A stretch of 64,000 nucleotides of DNA from Candidatus Scatomorpha intestinavium (GTDB taxonomy: Bacteria > Bacillota > Clostridia > Oscillospirales > Oscillospiraceae): positions 1 through 64,000 of the forward strand of contig DVGA01000114.1 of assembly GCA_018712985.1 (NCBI GenBank). The letters run 5' to 3'. Positions within the stretch are counted from its first letter, which is position 1; every line of letters begins with the position of its first letter. Positions 6,832 to 15,215 of the stretch are shown one piece after another. The notes under the pieces are model-generated. The model worked only from the letters and a program-made list of their open reading frames with translations, was not told the origin of the DNA and ran no database searches. A program made the position numbers and the translations under genes.

Positions 6832-8532
6832 TCATTTCGCCAGCGGCAGGCTGATTTCAGCCTTGAAGAGGTCTCCGTCCGTGCTGACGGTAAAGCTGCC
6901 ATGCTGCAGCTCCGTCAGGCTTTTCGCTATGCTCAGCCCGAGCCCGGAACCCTCCGTGGAGCGCGATGTGTCGCCGCGCACGAAGCGTTCCATGAGCTCA
7001 TCCGCGCTTATATTCAGCGCCGCGCGGGAGATGTTTTTCACAGCTATCACGGCGTTGTCCCCCGCGGTGCTCACGTCCACATACACCCTCGTCTCCGGCA
7101 TCGCGTATTTTACAACGTTGCTGAACAGGTTGTCGATGACCCTCCAGAGCAGCCGGCCGTCCGCGCGCACCATCGGCGCGGTGTCCGGCGCGTTTACGAT
7201 GACGGAGAGCTTCCCCGCCTCCATCCTCTGGCCGTACTCCGCCAGCGACTGGTTGATTATCTCTATCGTGCTCGTCGGCGCGAGCGTCACGCTGATGTTG
7301 CCTGTCGAGGCCTTGGACGCCTCCACAAGGTCCTCCGTGAGTTTTTTCAGCCTCTTTGACTGCCGCTCGAGCACCTCAAGGTACTCCCTGCCCTCCTCGT
7401 CGGAGTGAGGCCGCTCAAGCAGGTCGACGTAGTTGATTATGGAGGTCAGCGGCGTCTTTATGTCGTGCGACACGTTCGTTATCAGCTCCGTCTTGAGCCG
7501 CTCGGACTTCATCCGCTGCTCCACGGCCGCGGCCATGCCGTCGCCTATGGAATTCAAATTCTCCGCGTGGTGTTTGAACTCCCAGTACATATGCTTGGTG
7601 TCTATTTTGTACTCAAACTCTCCCGCCGCGAGCTTTTCCCCCGCCGCCTTCAGGCTCCTCATCTGCCAGGCCCCGAAGCACGCCAGCAGGAAAATCAGCG
7701 CCAGCAGTACCAGCCAGCAGAAGAGCGCGAAGCCGCTGTAGCGTATGCTTATGGCCAGGCAAAAGTTTGTGACGAGCACTACCAGGACGATCAGCGCCGT
7801 GCGCCAGACTATGGGTATCTTCGTCGTCATGTACCACACGCCGCGGCAAAAGGCCTTTATCTTATCCCAGCACCAGCGCAGGACGTGCAGACACAGCCGC
7901 AGGGCCATGTATATGACCGTGTTCCGCCACCATATGCCGCCGCCTGCTTTTACCCGCGTTGCGAAGGAGAGGAACGGCGCCAGCGCCACGATCCCCGCCA
8001 GATAGAACACCAGCATGGCGAACGCAAGGAATGTCAGCCCCTCCGGGCTGAAGGCGAAGAAGAACTCCATGCTCTCTGTCATGTCCACGAAAAGCAGCAG
8101 CCAGACAAACGCCAGCGCGAAACAGCCCGCAGCGTACAGATCCAGCGGGATTTTATCCAGCAGATTCAGCCTGACGCCCTCTTGCCCCCTCCTGCGGCCC
8201 GCCGCCATGAAGAGGAACACAAGGCAGGCTATGGAACCCGCCGCTCCCACGAGCACCGCGGCCAGCCACCAGCCGGACAGGTTGTAGATAAGCCGCATAA
8301 GGTCCCCGGCAAATTCCCGCTGCTGCGCGTTCAGGACGTCGTAACCGTACATGTATTCGAGCGAACGGGCAAATTCGTCCGCGCTGGAGTACACAGAGAG
8401 CTCGCTGTACTGCATGAGCGCCTCAAACACCCCGGCGGCAAGCACCGCCAGAAATATGCACAAAAGTACAAATGCGAGCATCTTTGCCCACAGCGAATGC
8501 GTGAGCTTCGCCTTTCCTTTATTTTCCATCAC
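6832..8532 (-). CDS. Multi-TM sensor histidine kinase
   Basis: LITNVSHDIKTPLTSIINYVDLL H-box, DNLFSNVVKYA N-box, GSGLGLSIAKSLTELQHG; several hydrophobic N-terminal segments. Confidence 0.92.
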   Translation of the reverse strand: MMENKGKAKLTHSLWAKMLAFVLLCIFLAVLAAGVFEALMQYSELSVYSSADEFARSLEYMYGYDVLNAQQREFAGDLMRLIYNLSGWWLAAVLVGAAGSIACLVFLFMAAGRRRGQEGVRLNLLDKIPLDLYAAGCFALAFVWLLLFVDMTESMEFFFAFSPEGLTFLAFAMLVFYLAGIVALAPFLSFATRVKAGGGIWWRNTVIYMALRLCLHVLRWCWDKIKAFCRGVWYMTTKIPIVWRTALIVLVVLVTNFCLAISIRYSGFALFCWLVLLALIFLLACFGAWQMRSLKAAGEKLAAGEFEYKIDTKHMYWEFKHHAENLNSIGDGMAAAVEQRMKSERLKTELITNVSHDIKTPLTSIINYVDLLERPHSDEEGREYLEVLERQSKRLKKLTEDLVEASKASTGNISVTLAPTSTIEIINQSLAEYGQRMEAGKLSVIVNAPDTAPMVRADGRLLWRVIDNLFSNVVKYAMPETRVYVDVSTAGDNAVIAVKNISRAALNISADELMERFVRGDTSRSTEGSGLGLSIAKSLTELQHGSFTVSTDGDLFKAEISLPLAK

Positions 8533-9230
8533 TTTCGGTCCTCCATCTTATAGCCCTGCCCCCAGACGACCTTGATATATCTCGGGTCGCTGGGATTGAT
8601 TTCGATTTTTTCGCGCAGATGCCGTATGTGCACGGCCACCGCCCCCTCGGAGCCGTAGGCGTTTTCGTTCCACACCATCTCATATATCTGCGTGGAGGAA
8701 AACACGCGGTTCGGGTTGCGCATGAGCAGCAGGAGTATGCTGTACTCGATCGGCGTCAGGTTCACCCTCTCGCCGTCCACCGTCACCGCCTTTTCGGCGT
8801 CGTTCAGCTCGATGCCGCCTATGGTGATCACGTCCGGCCTCCGTTCCGCCTTCTGCTGCCCGCCGAGGCGCATATACCGTCTGAGCTGGCTCCGCACGCG
8901 CGCCTGCACCTCCACCGGGTCGAACGGCTTTGTGATATAGTCGTCCGCGCCGATGTTCAGCCCGAGCACCTTGTCGGAGCTCTCGCTCTTGGCCGTCAGC
9001 AGTATAACGGGGATGTTATACTCCTCGCGCAGCTTCGCCGTGGCGGTTATGCCGTCCATCTCCGGCATCATGATGTCCATGAGCACAAGGTCTATCTCGT
9101 TCTCACGCACGCACTTTAGCGCTTGTGCGCCGGTGTACGCCGTGAAGATTTTGTAGTCCTCGCTGGAGAGGTAGATTTTCAGCGCCGCGACTATGTCGAG
9201 CTCGTCGTCACAGATAAGTATGTTTGCCAT
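8529..9230 (-). CDS. OmpR-family response regulator, partner of the histidine kinase at 6832-8532
   Basis: ILICDDELDIVAALK receiver; IMMPEMDG; GADDYITKPF; winged-helix C-terminus; 4-nt overlap with kinase. Confidence 0.93.
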   Translation of the reverse strand: MANILICDDELDIVAALKIYLSSEDYKIFTAYTGAQALKCVRENEIDLVLMDIMMPEMDGITATAKLREEYNIPVILLTAKSESSDKVLGLNIGADDYITKPFDPVEVQARVRSQLRRYMRLGGQQKAERRPDVITIGGIELNDAEKAVTVDGERVNLTPIEYSILLLLMRNPNRVFSSTQIYEMVWNENAYGSEGAVAVHIRHLREKIEINPSDPRYIKVVWGQGYKMEDRK

Positions 9231-9304: not shown

Positions 9305-9383
9305 CATTATATCATGCCCCGCTCCGCTTGCAAGCCGTGCGCCGATGTGATAAGCTATAGCCACACTGTACAGGAGGCAGATT

Positions 9384-10082
9384 ATGCCGCAGACGATACT
9401 TGTAGTTGACGATGAACGCGAAATTGCCGACCTTGTGGAACTCTACCTGAAAAACGAGGGCTTTGCCGTCCGCAAATTCTATAACGCCTCCGAGGCGCTC
9501 GAGTGCGTACGCACGGAGACGCTCGACCTCGCCATACTGGACGTCATGCTCCCGGATATGGACGGTTTCACGCTCTGCGCACGCATACGCGAGGAGCATT
9601 TCTGGCCAATAATCATGCTCACGGCCCGCGTGGAGGACATAGACAAGATCATGGGCCTCACCATCGGCGCAGACGACTATATCACAAAGCCGTTCAACCC
9701 CCTTGAGCTCGTCGCCCGCGTCAAAACGCAGCTCCGGCGCTACACGCGCTATAACCACCCAGGCGAGGAGGCTCCCACAAACGAAAATGAATACGACATC
9801 CGCGGCCTTGTGATAAACAAGGACACGCACAAGTGCACGCTCTACGGCAAGAACATCGCGCTCACACCGATAGAGTTCGGCATACTCTGGTATCTGTGCG
9901 ACAACCGCGGCCGCGTCATTTCCTCGGAGGAGCTGTTTGAGGCCGTCTGGGGCGAGAAATACCTCGACAACAACAATACGGTAATGGCACACATAGGCCG
10001 CCTGCGCGAAAAGCTGGGCGAGCCGCCGCGCAAGCCGCGTTTTGTCAAAACCGTCTGGGGGGTGGGTTATCAGGTTGAGTGA
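9384..10082 (+). CDS. vanR: VanR-type response regulator (vanG cluster)
   Basis: EIADLVELYLKNEGF, LAILDVMLPDMDGFTLC, PIIMLTARVEDIDKIMGLTIGADDYITKPFNPLELVARVKTQLRRYTRYN closely follow VanR_G as I recall it. Confidence 0.92.
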   Translation: MPQTILVVDDEREIADLVELYLKNEGFAVRKFYNASEALECVRTETLDLAILDVMLPDMDGFTLCARIREEHFWPIIMLTARVEDIDKIMGLTIGADDYITKPFNPLELVARVKTQLRRYTRYNHPGEEAPTNENEYDIRGLVINKDTHKCTLYGKNIALTPIEFGILWYLCDNRGRVISSEELFEAVWGEKYLDNNNTVMAHIGRLREKLGEPPRKPRFVKTVWGVGYQVE

Positions 10083-11208
10083 ATATGAAAACACCCCCGC
10101 CGCCCAGGTGCAGGCGGCCCCAATGCGCCGCTTCCGGCGCTCGCTCACCCGCCGGGTGCTCACGCGCTTCGTCGTGGCAATCGTGCTGTATACGATCCTC
10201 GTCTTCGTCGGGCTGTTCGTCAGCGTCATGGTCTGCGCCGCCATCAACTGGGACTATACGAACCCGATCTACCGCCTGCTGCAGTGGATAAGCAGCTATC
10301 TTCCCCTCGTAGTCATCATCGTGCTCGCCGCGGGGTATATCGTCCTGTTCATGCACTACTGGGCGCGCACGCTCGGCTATCTGGAGGACATAGTCTCCGC
10401 CACCGAGCAGATCTACAAATCCGGCAACGAGCCCATCTCGCTTCCCGACGACCTGCAGGTGGTCGAAAACCAGATGAACCGCATTAAGCTGGACATGCTC
10501 GCCAGCCGCCGCGCGGCTCAGGAGGCGGACCAGCGCAAAAACGACCTTGTCGTCTATCTCGCGCACGATCTTAAAACGCCGCTGACCTCCGTTATCGGCT
10601 ACCTCACGCTGCTGCGAGACGAGCAGGGCATCTCCCCGGAGCTGCGCGAGCACTATCTCTCCGTGGCCCTGGACAAGGCCGAGCGGCTCGAGGACCTGAT
10701 AAACGAGTTTTTCGACATCACACGTTTCTCGCTGACGAGCCTCACCCTCGAGCTGAAAACCGTCAGCCTCTCGCGCATGTTAGAGCAGACGGCGGACGAA
10801 TTCGCCCCGCTCCTCGCGGAAAAGGGCCTCGCCTGCCGCGTCATCGCCCCGCCGGATGTCAGCATCACCTGCGACCCGGACAAGCTCGAGCGCGTGTTCG
10901 ACAACCTGCTCCGCAACGCGATAAACTACAGCCACGAGGACACGGACATCACCGTCACGCTCGCCGTTGACGGCAAAGCCGCCCGCCTGACCTTCACAAA
11001 CGAGGGCGACGACATACCCAAGCACAAGCTGGAGCGGATCTTCGAGCAGTTTTACCGCCTGGACACCGCCCGCGGCAGCCGCACCGGCGGCGCAGGCCTC
11101 GGCCTCGCCATAGCAAAGGAGATCGTCGAGCTCCACGGCGGCACGATAAGCGCCGAGAGCGCGAACGGCCTGATCACCTTCCGCATTTCCCTCCCGCTCC
11201 ATCCGTGA
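10075..11208 (+). CDS. vanS: VanS-type sensor histidine kinase
   Basis: LVVYLAHDLKTPLTSVIGYLTLL, DNLLRNAINYS, FEQFYRLDTARGSRTGGAGLGLAIAKEIVELHGG; TTG start overlapping the vanR stop. Confidence 0.88.
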   Translation: MSEYENTPAAQVQAAPMRRFRRSLTRRVLTRFVVAIVLYTILVFVGLFVSVMVCAAINWDYTNPIYRLLQWISSYLPLVVIIVLAAGYIVLFMHYWARTLGYLEDIVSATEQIYKSGNEPISLPDDLQVVENQMNRIKLDMLASRRAAQEADQRKNDLVVYLAHDLKTPLTSVIGYLTLLRDEQGISPELREHYLSVALDKAERLEDLINEFFDITRFSLTSLTLELKTVSLSRMLEQTADEFAPLLAEKGLACRVIAPPDVSITCDPDKLERVFDNLLRNAINYSHEDTDITVTLAVDGKAARLTFTNEGDDIPKHKLERIFEQFYRLDTARGSRTGGAGLGLAIAKEIVELHGGTISAESANGLITFRISLPLHP

Positions 11209-11238
11209 GAAAATCGTAAGATTTGCTTCATAAAATAT

Positions 11239-11348
11239 TGGGTGTTTGTACATCCCGCGCGGAAAAACTCCGCTTCTGAACCTGATAGTATATCGCTGTC
11301 AGGACAAAGAAGCGGAGTTTCCGCTTTATTTACAGGAGGCAACACCCA
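11239..11348 (+). promoter_or_regulatory. Structured vanG leader: nested hairpin plus outer 8-bp helix reaching the start codon
   Basis: Stem GCGG-aa-AAACTCCGCTTCT (11259-11277) / AGAAGCGGAGTTT-CCGC (11308-11324); inner stem CCTGATAG (11281-11288) / CTGTCAGG (11296-11303); outer TGGGTGTT (11239-11246) / AACACCCA (11341-11348). Confidence 0.55.
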
Positions 11349-12400
11349 TGGAAAAGAAAAAGATAGCGGTAATTTTCGGCGGCTGCTCCCCGGAGCACAC
11401 GGTCTCTCTCACCTCGGCCGCCGCCGTTATAAGGCATATCGACACCGAAAAGTATGAGGTCGTCCAGCTCGGCATTACCGAGGGCGGCGAGTGGTTCCGC
11501 TTTTACGGCTCCCCGGATGACATAGAGGCCAACACCTGGCGCGCCGACCGCACAAAGTGCATCCCCGCCGTGATCTCCCCCGACCGCGACCAGCACGGCA
11601 TACTTGAGTTCCGCATGTCCGGCGTCCGCACGACGCGGCTCGACGCCGCTTTCCCTGTCCTGCACGGCCGCAACGGCGAGGACGGCACGGTGCAGGGCCT
11701 CTGCGAGCTCGCCGGCATCCCGCTTATAGGCTGCGGCACGCTCTCCTCCGCCCTCTGCATGGACAAGGACCGCGCGCACAAGCTCGTAATGCTCGCCGGG
11801 ATCGCCGTACCGCGCTCGGTGCTCCTTGAAAAGCTGCCCGCGAGCCCGGAGCTCGCCACCCTCGCCGAGGATATAGGCTACCCCCTGTTCGTCAAGCCCG
11901 TGCGCGCCGGCTCCTCCTTCGGCGTCACCCGCGTGGAGTCCGCCGCCGGCCTCCGCGCCGCGGTCAGGGAGGCCTTCAGGTACGACACCTCCGTTCTGAT
12001 AGAGGAGGCCGTCCCCGGTTTTGAGGTCGGCTGCGCCGTCATGGGCAACGGCAATTTGATAACCGGCAGGGCGGATGAGATCGAGCTAAGCGGCGGATAC
12101 TTCGACTTTGAGGAGAAGTACACGCTCAAAACTTCAAAAATACATATGCCCGCTCGCGTGGACGAGCCCACCGAGCGCCGCCTGCGCGATACGGCCTGCC
12201 GGATATACCGTACCCTCGGCTGCCGCGGCTTCGCCCGCGTGGACATGTTCCTCACGCCAGGCAGGCGCATCGTGTTCAACGAGGTGAATACGATTCCTGG
12301 CTTCACCTCCCACAGCCGCTTCCCAAAGATGATGTCCGGCGTCGGCTACGACTTTGCCGCGCTTGTCGACGCCCTGATAAGCCTCGGGCTGGAGGTGTGA
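11348..12400 (+). CDS. vanG: VanG-type D-alanine--D-serine ligase
   Basis: KIAVIFGGCSPEHTVSLTSA, FPVLHGRNGEDGTVQGLCELAGIPLIGCGTLSSALCMDKDRAHKLV, VKPVRAGSSFGVT, EKYTLKTSKIHMPARVD, FNEVNTIPGFTSHSRFPKMM match recalled VanG. RBS AGGAGG 11334-11339. Confidence 0.93.
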   Translation: MEKKKIAVIFGGCSPEHTVSLTSAAAVIRHIDTEKYEVVQLGITEGGEWFRFYGSPDDIEANTWRADRTKCIPAVISPDRDQHGILEFRMSGVRTTRLDAAFPVLHGRNGEDGTVQGLCELAGIPLIGCGTLSSALCMDKDRAHKLVMLAGIAVPRSVLLEKLPASPELATLAEDIGYPLFVKPVRAGSSFGVTRVESAAGLRAAVREAFRYDTSVLIEEAVPGFEVGCAVMGNGNLITGRADEIELSGGYFDFEEKYTLKTSKIHMPARVDEPTERRLRDTACRIYRTLGCRGFARVDMFLTPGRRIVFNEVNTIPGFTSHSRFPKMMSGVGYDFAALVDALISLGLEV

Positions 12401-13122
12401 ACATGGTAGGAGTACACAGCGGCTGCCTCGTCCTCGTAAATGCGCGGCATCCCATCCGCGATACTTCGCGCCCCGCTCTCGCCCCCGCCGCGCCGGGCAG
12501 CGGCGTGCTGCTCGAAAAGCGCGCCTCCGCCATGCTCACCGGCGCCCTTGAGCGCCTCGGCGCCGTTGGGGAGATAGTCCCCGTGAGCGGCTACCGCTCC
12601 GAGGCCGAGCAGCGCGAGATCTGGGACTCGTCCATGGCGGAAAACGGCGAGGACTTCACCCGCAAATTCGTCGCCGCCCCCGGCTGCAGCGAGCACCAGA
12701 CGGGCCTTGCCATAGACCTTGCCCTGCGGGCGGAAGACATAGACTTCATCCGCCCGGATTTCCCGTATGGCGGCGTCTGCGGCCGCTTCCGTGAAATAGC
12801 GCCCGACTACGGCTTTATTGAGCGCTACCCCGCCGGGAAGGAGGACATAACCGGCATAGCGGCCGAACCGTGGCACTTCAGGTATGTAGGCCGTCCCCAC
12901 GCCAGGCTGATGCGTGACATGGGCCTCACGCTTGAGGAATACGTCGAGTTCCTGCGCGGCTACCCATACCCCGGACGGCTGCTCAGCACCTCCAACGGCG
13001 GCTACGACGCCCTCATCGGCTTTGCCTGCAGCTATGAGCCGGAGGAGCACCGCGCGCCCTGCCAGGTCTCCGGCAACAACGTCGACGGATATATCCTCAC
13101 GCTCTGGAGGCTGCCGGCATGA
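12397..13122 (+). CDS. vanXY: VanXY-type D,D-dipeptidase/D,D-carboxypeptidase (M15)
   Basis: VPVSGYRSEAEQREIWDSS, GEDFTRKFVAAPGCSEHQTGLAIDLAL, GFIERYPAGKEDITGIAAEPWHFRYVG; 4-nt overlap with vanG. Confidence 0.92.
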   Translation: MNMVGVHSGCLVLVNARHPIRDTSRPALAPAAPGSGVLLEKRASAMLTGALERLGAVGEIVPVSGYRSEAEQREIWDSSMAENGEDFTRKFVAAPGCSEHQTGLAIDLALRAEDIDFIRPDFPYGGVCGRFREIAPDYGFIERYPAGKEDITGIAAEPWHFRYVGRPHARLMRDMGLTLEEYVEFLRGYPYPGRLLSTSNGGYDALIGFACSYEPEEHRAPCQVSGNNVDGYILTLWRLPA

Positions 13123-15215
13123 GCGCAAGAAACTACCGCGGCATCGACCTCTTCCGAATAGCCGCCGCGTTCCTCGTCGTGGCTATACACACCTCGCCCC
13201 TCGCCTCCTACAGTGAAACCGCGGACTTCATACTGACAAGGGAGATCGCCCGCACGGCGGTGCCGTTTTTCTTCATGACCACCGGCTTCTTCGTCCTCGG
13301 CGACTTTCGCCGCACAAAGGCCTTCCTGAAAAAGACCGCGCTTATCTACGCCGCCTGCGTCGCTCTCTATCTGCCCGTAAATGTCTACGCCGGGCGCCTC
13401 GACGGCCTCACTCTCGGAGGACTGTTCACGCAGCTCTTTTTTGAGGGCACGTTTTACCACCTCTGGTATCTCCCCGCCGCGCTGTTGGGCGTGCTGCTGG
13501 CCTCCTTCCTGCTCGACCGGCTCGGGCTCAAGGGCGCTCTGGCCGCCGCGGCCGCGCTCTACTGCGCCGGCCTGCTCGGGGACAGCTATTACGGTCTGAT
13601 TTCAAATGTCCCGCCGCTGAAAGCCGCCGTCAATGCGGCCATCTCGGTCACTGGGTATACGCGCAACGGCATCTTCTTCGCCCCGCTGTTTTTGCTGCTT
13701 GGCCACAGGATAAAAATCTCCGCCGCTCCCCGCCCGACCTTCAGCGCCGCAGCGCTCGCCGTCTCCGGCGCGCTGCTCATCGCCGAGGGCCTTGTCCTGA
13801 GGCACTTCAGCTTGCAGTACCACGACAGCATGTATGTTTTTCTGCCTGTTGTCATGTATTTCCTCTTCGCGCTCCTCTCCACCGTCCACGGGAGGTGCCC
13901 GGGCTGGGCGGCAAACTTTTCCCTGCTCGTCTATGTGCTGCACCCCGCGGTGATAATCGCCGTGCGCGGAGCCGCGCGCATACTCGGGCTGTGGGAGATG
14001 CTTGTGGAAAACAGCGTCGGGCACTATGCCGCGGTCTGCGCGGCGACCGGCCTGATTTCCGCCCTACTGCTGCTGATTTCCCGCCGTTTCACCGCCAAAG
14101 CCTCGCCTTTTTCCCGCGCGTATGTTGAGGTTGACACCGCCGCCTACCGCCGGAACGCACGGGCTCTGATGTCGCTCCTGCCGCCCGGCTGCCGTCTCAT
14201 GGCCGTGCTGAAGTCCAACGCCTACGGCCTCGGAGCGGAGCAGGCCGTGCAGGCCCTCAGGGCCGAGGGCGTGGAAAACTGGGCCGTTGCCACTGCCTCC
14301 GAGGGCGCGGCGCTCAGAAAATACGGCGCCCTCGGCACTATCCTCGTCCTCGGGCGCACCCCTTCATCGGATATCGGGGTGCTGACGCGCTATCGCCTGA
14401 CGCAAACCGTCGTCTCACTTGAATACGCGCGCGAGCTCTCTTCCATGCGCCGCCGCGTGGACGTACACATCAAAGTGGACACCGGGATGCACCGCCTCGG
14501 CATCGCCTGGACGGATATAGACGCCATGGACGCCGTGTTTTCCCTGCCCCATCTGCGCGTGACAGGTATGTTCACGCATTTTTCCTCCGCCGACAGCGCA
14601 GAAAACAGCGCAGCGGACTTCACACGCGGGCAGGCCGAGCGCTTTTTTGCCGCCGCCTCCGCACTCCGCGAACGCGGGCATGACACCGGCGAGCTGCACA
14701 CGCAGAGCAGCTACGGGCTGCTGAATTATCCCGACGAGCGCTGCACGCTTGTCCGCGCCGGCATCGCCCTATGCGGGGTAAAGAGCTCGCGGTCCGACCT
14801 CACGGAGCGCTGGCCCGGCCTTGAGCCGGTGCTCAGCCTCAGGGCACGGGTTTCGGAAGTGCGCGATATCCCGGCAGGCGAGGGCGCCGGCTACGACCTC
14901 GCTTTCAGGGCGGAGCGGCCCACGGTGCTCGCCGCCGTCCCCATCGGATATGCCGACGGCATATTCCGCTGCCTCCAGGGCGGTTATGCCCTGATAAACG
15001 GGCACAGAGCACCCGTAGCCGGGCGCATCTGCATGGACCAACTGCTGGTAGACGTCACCGAATGCGGCAGCGTCTGCCCCGGGGACACTGTAACTTTCAT
15101 CGGCCGTGACGGCGGTTTGGAGATAACCGCCGAAGAGCTCACGGAGCGCAGCGGCACGATAACCAACGAGCTTTTCAGCCGCCTTGGCCCGCGTCTGCCT
15201 CGCGTGTGGCGCTGA
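13119..15215 (+). CDS. vanT: VanT-type membrane serine/alanine racemase (acyltransferase_3-like membrane domain + PLP racemase)
   Basis: N-term RGIDLFRIAAAFLVVAIHTSPLASYSETADFI; C-term YVEVDTAAYRRNARALMSLLPPGCRLMAVLKSNAYGLGAE racemase PLP-lysine motif. Confidence 0.93.
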   Translation: MSARNYRGIDLFRIAAAFLVVAIHTSPLASYSETADFILTREIARTAVPFFFMTTGFFVLGDFRRTKAFLKKTALIYAACVALYLPVNVYAGRLDGLTLGGLFTQLFFEGTFYHLWYLPAALLGVLLASFLLDRLGLKGALAAAAALYCAGLLGDSYYGLISNVPPLKAAVNAAISVTGYTRNGIFFAPLFLLLGHRIKISAAPRPTFSAAALAVSGALLIAEGLVLRHFSLQYHDSMYVFLPVVMYFLFALLSTVHGRCPGWAANFSLLVYVLHPAVIIAVRGAARILGLWEMLVENSVGHYAAVCAATGLISALLLLISRRFTAKASPFSRAYVEVDTAAYRRNARALMSLLPPGCRLMAVLKSNAYGLGAEQAVQALRAEGVENWAVATASEGAALRKYGALGTILVLGRTPSSDIGVLTRYRLTQTVVSLEYARELSSMRRRVDVHIKVDTGMHRLGIAWTDIDAMDAVFSLPHLRVTGMFTHFSSADSAENSAADFTRGQAERFFAAASALRERGHDTGELHTQSSYGLLNYPDERCTLVRAGIALCGVKSSRSDLTERWPGLEPVLSLRARVSEVRDIPAGEGAGYDLAFRAERPTVLAAVPIGYADGIFRCLQGGYALINGHRAPVAGRICMDQLLVDVTECGSVCPGDTVTFIGRDGGLEITAEELTERSGTITNELFSRLGPRLPRVWR

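Follow-up and report, generated by a model that had tools for sequence, protein, structure and literature searches.

Introduction

Van gene clusters are textbook examples of inducible resistance, but little attention has been given to how the resistance operon is kept silent when a regulator operon of the same orientation lies directly ahead of it. The closest described system is the E. faecalis vanG operon promoter P_YG, which in published work is described with the −35 sequence AAAACA, a 16-bp spacer and the −10 sequence TACAAT (PMC4405338). In the same account, the VanR footprint at P_YG covers −100 to −56 from the start, reaching −43 at higher concentration, and VanU recognises imperfect palindromes both at P_UG and at P_YG (PMC4405338). 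The text of that paper around P_YG makes no mention of a hairpin, a loop, a stem or read-through.

Here we analyse a vanS-vanG junction in a 64,000-nucleotide stretch of DNA (the window) and the corresponding junctions of other van loci. The hairpin, its T-rich tail, the VanR boxes, the −10 element in the loop, their fixed geometry and their recurrence across clusters were all computed. From these sequence features we consider it likely that the junction holds a VanR-activated promoter nested within an intrinsic terminator, which would insulate the resistance operon from vanRS read-through.

Results

The van cluster of the window

The window carries a vanR-vanS-vanG-vanXY-like-vanT-like cluster in which all genes lie on the + strand:

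9328-9356 (+), probable vanRS promoter P_R, TTGCAA, 17 bp, TAAGCT with extended TG, predicted from sequence
9384-10082 (+), vanR, response regulator, NCBIfam NF033117 at 399 bits (cutoff 350), Pfam Response_reg and Trans_reg_C
10075-11208 (+), vanS, histidine kinase, TTG start assumed, NCBIfam NF033091 at 386.4 bits (cutoff 400), HisKA and HATPase_c
11334-11339 (+), vanG ribosome-binding site AGGAGG, as in the earlier note
11348-12400 (+), vanG, D-Ala-D-Ser ligase, NCBIfam NF000091 VanG at 535.9 bits (cutoff 495)
12397-13122 (+), vanXY-like D,D-peptidase, NCBIfam vanXY_G at 232 and vanXY at 210 bits, both below cutoff, Pfam VanY
13119-15215 (+), vanT-like membrane serine racemase, vanT-CELN at 556 bits (cutoff 900), vanT-G-Cterm at 459.4 bits (cutoff 460)

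VanS falls just under its curated cutoff, yet VanS is its best match, and the families matched below cutoff by the vanXY-like and vanT-like genes are likewise the best for those genes. Inspection by eye showed no VanR box near P_R. Since a constitutive-looking promoter precedes vanR, its transcripts would be expected to run on into vanG unless stopped. A divergent second two-component system is also present in the window (8529-9230 and 6832-8532), and its near-consensus promoter, TTGCAA-16-TATAAT at 9306-9333 (−), stands back to back with that of vanR.

A stable hairpin with a T-rich tail follows vanS

The gap between vanS and vanG contains the following structures:

11259-11324 (+), candidate terminator hairpin, predicted to be formed only by RNA arriving from upstream
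11325-11332 (+), TTTATTTA, T-rich tail of the candidate terminator, terminator score +6.8
11309-11326 (+), short alternative hairpin AAGCGGA-GTT-TCCGCTT, about −10.5 to −10.7 kcal/mol, overlooked in the earlier note

The stems of the large hairpin agree with their first description. Its 13-bp stem, AAACTCCGCTTCT (11265-11277) against AGAAGCGGAGTTT (11308-11320), is 100% complementary, is extended outwards by GCGG (11259-11262) and CCGC (11321-11324), and encloses an inner stem of CCTGATAG (11281-11288) and CTGTCAGG (11296-11303) with one G-U pair. Folding of the 70-nt hairpin gave about −41 to −42.4 kcal/mol (z −9.26), and none of 200 shuffles was equally stable. The hairpin occurs once in its own genome, and a mobile or REP-like repeat was therefore rejected. 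A riboswitch or other known cis-regulatory RNA family was also set aside, as no Rfam family matched: the window gave no gathering-level match and the element itself only chance-level ones. A search for tRNA-like elements across the window found none.

The earlier note had seen no T-run directly after the hairpin and had hence taken it not to be an ordinary terminator. However, because the outer GCGG/CCGC pairs put the end of the stem at 11324, the tail that follows directly is TTTATTTA, with T in six of eight positions. The window thus has the stable stem and U-rich tract of a Rho-independent terminator, albeit with a modest tail, and a d'Aubenton-type terminator score that is weakly positive (+6.8). 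The interruption of the tail counts against a terminator. In 52 nonredundant elements aligned on their −10 sequences, T is enriched to 69-77% at +17 to +21; the terminator score was zero or below in 20 of the 52, partly as a result of poor hairpin trimming. The stem sequences diverge while pairing and the downstream T-rich stretch are kept, and the element is hence terminator-like in character.

In the window and the two relatives closest to it, the 3' arm could refold into the short hairpin (11309-11326) near the 5' end of vanG's own mRNA, which would then not be free of structure, a point against the nested-promoter reading; the short hairpin may be stabilising or slightly attenuating. A further complementarity was seen in the window fold only, between GGGTGTT (11240-11246) and AACACCA/AACACCC at the start region of vanG (11342-11348). 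This pairing would be possible in read-through RNA only and would cover the start codon.

A predicted VanR-type promoter reaches into the hairpin

The junction also contains promoter elements, among which the VanR boxes upstream of the hairpin and the extended −10 in its apical part had both been missed in the earlier note:

11203-11214 (+), VanR box 1, CCGTGAGAAAAT, 11/12 to consensus, overlapping the vanS stop codon, −95 from the predicted start
11214-11225 (+), VanR box 2, TCGTAAGATTTG, 9/12, −84 from the predicted start
11228-11239 (+), possible third VanR box, TCATAAAATATT, 9/12, weak
11264-11269 (+), −35-like AAAACT, 16 bp ahead of the −10, in A-rich columns (−35 to −31) that are conserved
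11283-11291 (+), extended −10, TG-A-TAGTAT, lying apically in the hairpin
11298 (+), predicted vanG transcription start (+1), placed from the −10 and the box spacing, 6 nt past the hairpin centre

The box consensus was taken from PMC4405338, and the predicted start was defined as 7 nt after TAnnnT. As expected of a VanR promoter, tandem 12-bp boxes of the form (T/C)CGTANGAAA(T/A)T with an 11-bp period lie upstream, their positions at −95 and −84 from the predicted start are inside the footprinted range of −100 to −43, and the cognate VanR and VanS genes (VanS marginally below its cutoff) are adjacent.

The promoter layout of the window, AAAACT-N16-TAGTAT, resembles that of P_YG as published in the box consensus and position, the poor −35, the 16-bp spacer, the TAnnnT and the location at a post-vanS junction. 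It differs in that the first gene of the E. faecalis operon is vanY and that the repressor VanU acts there too. AAAACA-N16-TACAAT itself occurs verbatim in three of the compared loci (L067, L079 and L088), with TACAAT inside the hairpin loop.

For the hairpin to be a leader of vanG, as had been proposed, both arms should lie downstream of the start, whereas the predicted start at 11298 falls inside the hairpin. We infer that vanG transcription begins at about this position, 3' of the hairpin apex, and that vanG's own mRNA would therefore lack the 5' arm and be unable to form the hairpin. RNA from upstream carries both arms and RNA from the predicted start the 3' arm only; the median folding energies across loci are −25.6 kcal/mol for the full hairpin and −0.95 kcal/mol for RNA from the predicted start. 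Moreover, what is conserved at the level of sequence is a set of DNA promoter elements, the −95/−84 VanR boxes and the −10 that the loop carries.

The nested layout in other van loci

The comparison set consisted of loci around VanG homologues drawn from genome collections. The closest relatives that share this gene order (L022, L036 and L023, and Sporobacter L031) have a hairpin at the corresponding site, with a different stem sequence and a similar apical TGnTAGnnT. Most vanS-vanG gaps of Clostridia, and that of Bacillus norwichensis (L074), have a long hairpin with an apical TGnTAnnnT and T residues behind it, and boxes resembling GAAAATCGTAAGAATTT directly follow the vanS stop in such gaps. 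The element is still found 3' of vanS in operons that continue with a gene other than vanG (for example L035, L040, L077, L082, L084, L086, L090, L092, L093, L097, L103 and L106). Conservation of the element at the junction of vanS and vanG, where it sets vanG apart from vanRS, is upheld, while its readings as a leader and as something other than an ordinary terminator appear not to hold.

Geometry was measured on 61 hairpins downstream of vanS. The predicted start lies a median of 6.0 nt past the hairpin centre (4.5-8 nt in 54 loci), and for most loci, the window among them, the VanR boxes begin at −95 and −84. When the 52 nonredundant elements were anchored on the −10 only, without use of the boxes, sharp VanR-box columns appeared at −95 to −84 and −84 to −73, with G at −93 in 85%, at −89 in 87%, at −82 in 83% and at −78 in 92%. 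The TAnnnT of each hairpin was picked by a scoring rule that makes −12, −11 and −7 conserved by construction and biases −15/−14 towards TG; these positions were not counted as evidence because the search pattern imposes or biases them.

We then compared strong terminators (at least 12 pairs) within 330 nt downstream of vanS with those elsewhere in the same loci. The strict motif TGnTAnnnT was present in 36/48 of the former and 5/157 of the latter (Fisher p 2e-24, which is indicative only, since the loci share descent and the test overstates their independence), and three of the five cases elsewhere resemble copies of the same junction in which vanS is cut off from the locus. The element is thus like other Rho-independent terminators in having a GC-containing stem and a T-rich tail 3' of a gene, but differs in the predicted activated promoter in its loop, which is rare in the others (5/157).

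Ungapped pairing in the −10-anchored register was 68%, compared with 41-53% in slid registers. Swapping 3' halves between loci lowered pairing to 58% (sd 1.1, maximum 62, 500 swaps) from the actual 68%, a comparison likewise indicative only, as shared descent makes it overstate independence. Two-sided changes that preserve pairing averaged 4.8 per locus pair sharing at least 10 pairs.

A further 47 loci were fetched after the rule had been fixed, of which 21 have a same-strand vanS upstream (three of these, L163, L164 and L190, being close relatives of earlier loci). All 21 show the hairpin and T residues, 20 of the 21 the geometry, and 18 a −95 box with at least 9/12 matches. In all, dozens of van clusters show this arrangement; about 12 of the 67 loci with vanS upstream are without a clean copy. 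In L141, L142, L146, L054 and L066, vanS lies upstream and no hairpin with a T-tail was found after it.

Discussion

A model of a proposed nested promoter and its alternatives

In the model that we favour, vanRS mRNA from its own upstream promoter would pass the vanS stop codon and fold the entire hairpin (11259-11324), and this RNA would be released at the T-rich tail. With release at this point the resistance genes would escape read-through transcription. Upon activation, VanR-P would bind the −95/−84 boxes and RNA polymerase would initiate from the extended −10 in the hairpin apex. The RNA begun at around 11298 would have the 3' arm only, hence no terminator, and would run on into vanG-vanXY-vanT. 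Since upstream RNA has both arms and RNA from the internal start only one, the same DNA would both stop vanRS read-through and start the resistance transcript. The start site, termination efficiency, VanR binding and benefit of insulation are inferred parts of this model.

One alternative is that the hairpin lies in the 5' UTR of vanG mRNA as an attenuator, a riboswitch or an antiterminator/terminator switch, with the 11309-11326 hairpin acting as terminator. The window, L022 and L036 do have mutually exclusive folds, the large hairpin versus GCGGA-n-TCCGC with a short T stretch. However, most other taxa lack the short hairpin and have a T-run immediately after the large one, and because the mini-hairpins do not extend beyond the window and its closest relatives we treat attenuation as a rival only. 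The predicted start 3' of the 5' arm, the lack of an Rfam match, and a conserved loop sequence that is a promoter element at a fixed distance from the VanR boxes also argue against it, and we regard it as unlikely. The hairpin could instead be a plain vanRS terminator whose loop −10 is incidental, the real promoter being elsewhere, for example near TTTGTACAT (11245-11253). The vanB operon (L159) offers a precedent, its terminator coming first and its VanR-type repeats standing apart from it, but the enrichment of the −10 after vanS (36/48 against 5/157) with its extended TG, a spacing to the VanR boxes that is constant to the single base, and the fit of 20 of the 21 later-fetched loci make such a coincidence quite improbable. 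A promoter just 5' of the hairpin (TATACT-like in L022), with the hairpin as leader, was also considered; it was dropped because in every taxon it is the loop −10, and not TATACT, whose distance to the VanR boxes stays constant.

The dyad might instead function as an operator in the DNA, recognised by VanR or by some repressor, protein binding having been among the earlier suggestions. In favour of this are the imperfect palindromes bound by VanU at P_UG and P_YG in the published description of E. faecalis (PMC4405338). The arms, however, vary widely among species while pairing is kept, a T-rich stretch lies 3', and the VanR boxes are separate direct repeats upstream; as the arm sequences are not conserved across species, an operator is very unlikely. 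We give hardly any credence to a role in 5' stabilisation or RNase processing by which vanG would be tuned relative to vanRS within one common transcript: a short hairpin does lie near the predicted 5' end of vanG mRNA, but the embedded −10, the T-rich tail and the VanR boxes would all go unexplained.

Related van operons and implications

The proposed promoter nested in a terminator has a probable counterpart in the P_H region of Tn1546-type vanA (L161). Here the vanS-vanH gap contains a hairpin of −32.8 kcal/mol with an apical TAGACT and a TTTT behind its stem. When the start is placed by TAGACT, repeats resembling the boxes lie at −95 and −62. It differs in the second box, at −62 rather than −84, and in a predicted 5' UTR of 104 nt. 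TAGACT in the L161 hairpin (1405-1465) is probably the −10 of P_H. In a vanA plasmid (L158, 818-2540), IS1251 is inserted between vanS and vanH, and the TAGACT hairpin is intact downstream of the insertion. The vanB operon (L159) also has a terminator hairpin after vanS, but in an apparently serial and not a nested arrangement, with the hairpin and TTTTTTT followed by CTACAG-type repeats, putatively of the VanR type, and then the likely promoter. Its vanS-vanY gap (2236-2400) is a natural contrast to the nested layout.

We put at about even chances the broader proposal that a terminator-embedded, VanR-activated promoter is the ancestral and widely kept van architecture, shared by gut Clostridia, Bacillus and Tn1546 vanA, that gates the resistance operon by VanR-P only and is so far undescribed. 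Searches of the open-access literature found no description of a promoter in a terminator or of such a van hairpin, which is weak evidence of novelty as most older subscription papers were outside their scope, and it is possible that the vanA hairpin was described in that older literature. A promoter in a terminator would be a compact one-way gate, in which read-through RNA terminates itself and initiated RNA cannot. The model predicts which changes in the gap downstream of vanS would give constitutive and which lost expression, and the element offers a simple signature for finding the resistance promoter in unannotated van clusters.

The link of the hairpin to vanS is seen also in congeners that have no vanS before vanG (L024-L030), in which an extended −10 is present and such a hairpin absent. 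Upstream of vanG these congeners have in common a different block (TTnnTAnnAATTTCGTCTTT ... CAAAGTGnTAnAATG), which looks like another regulated promoter.
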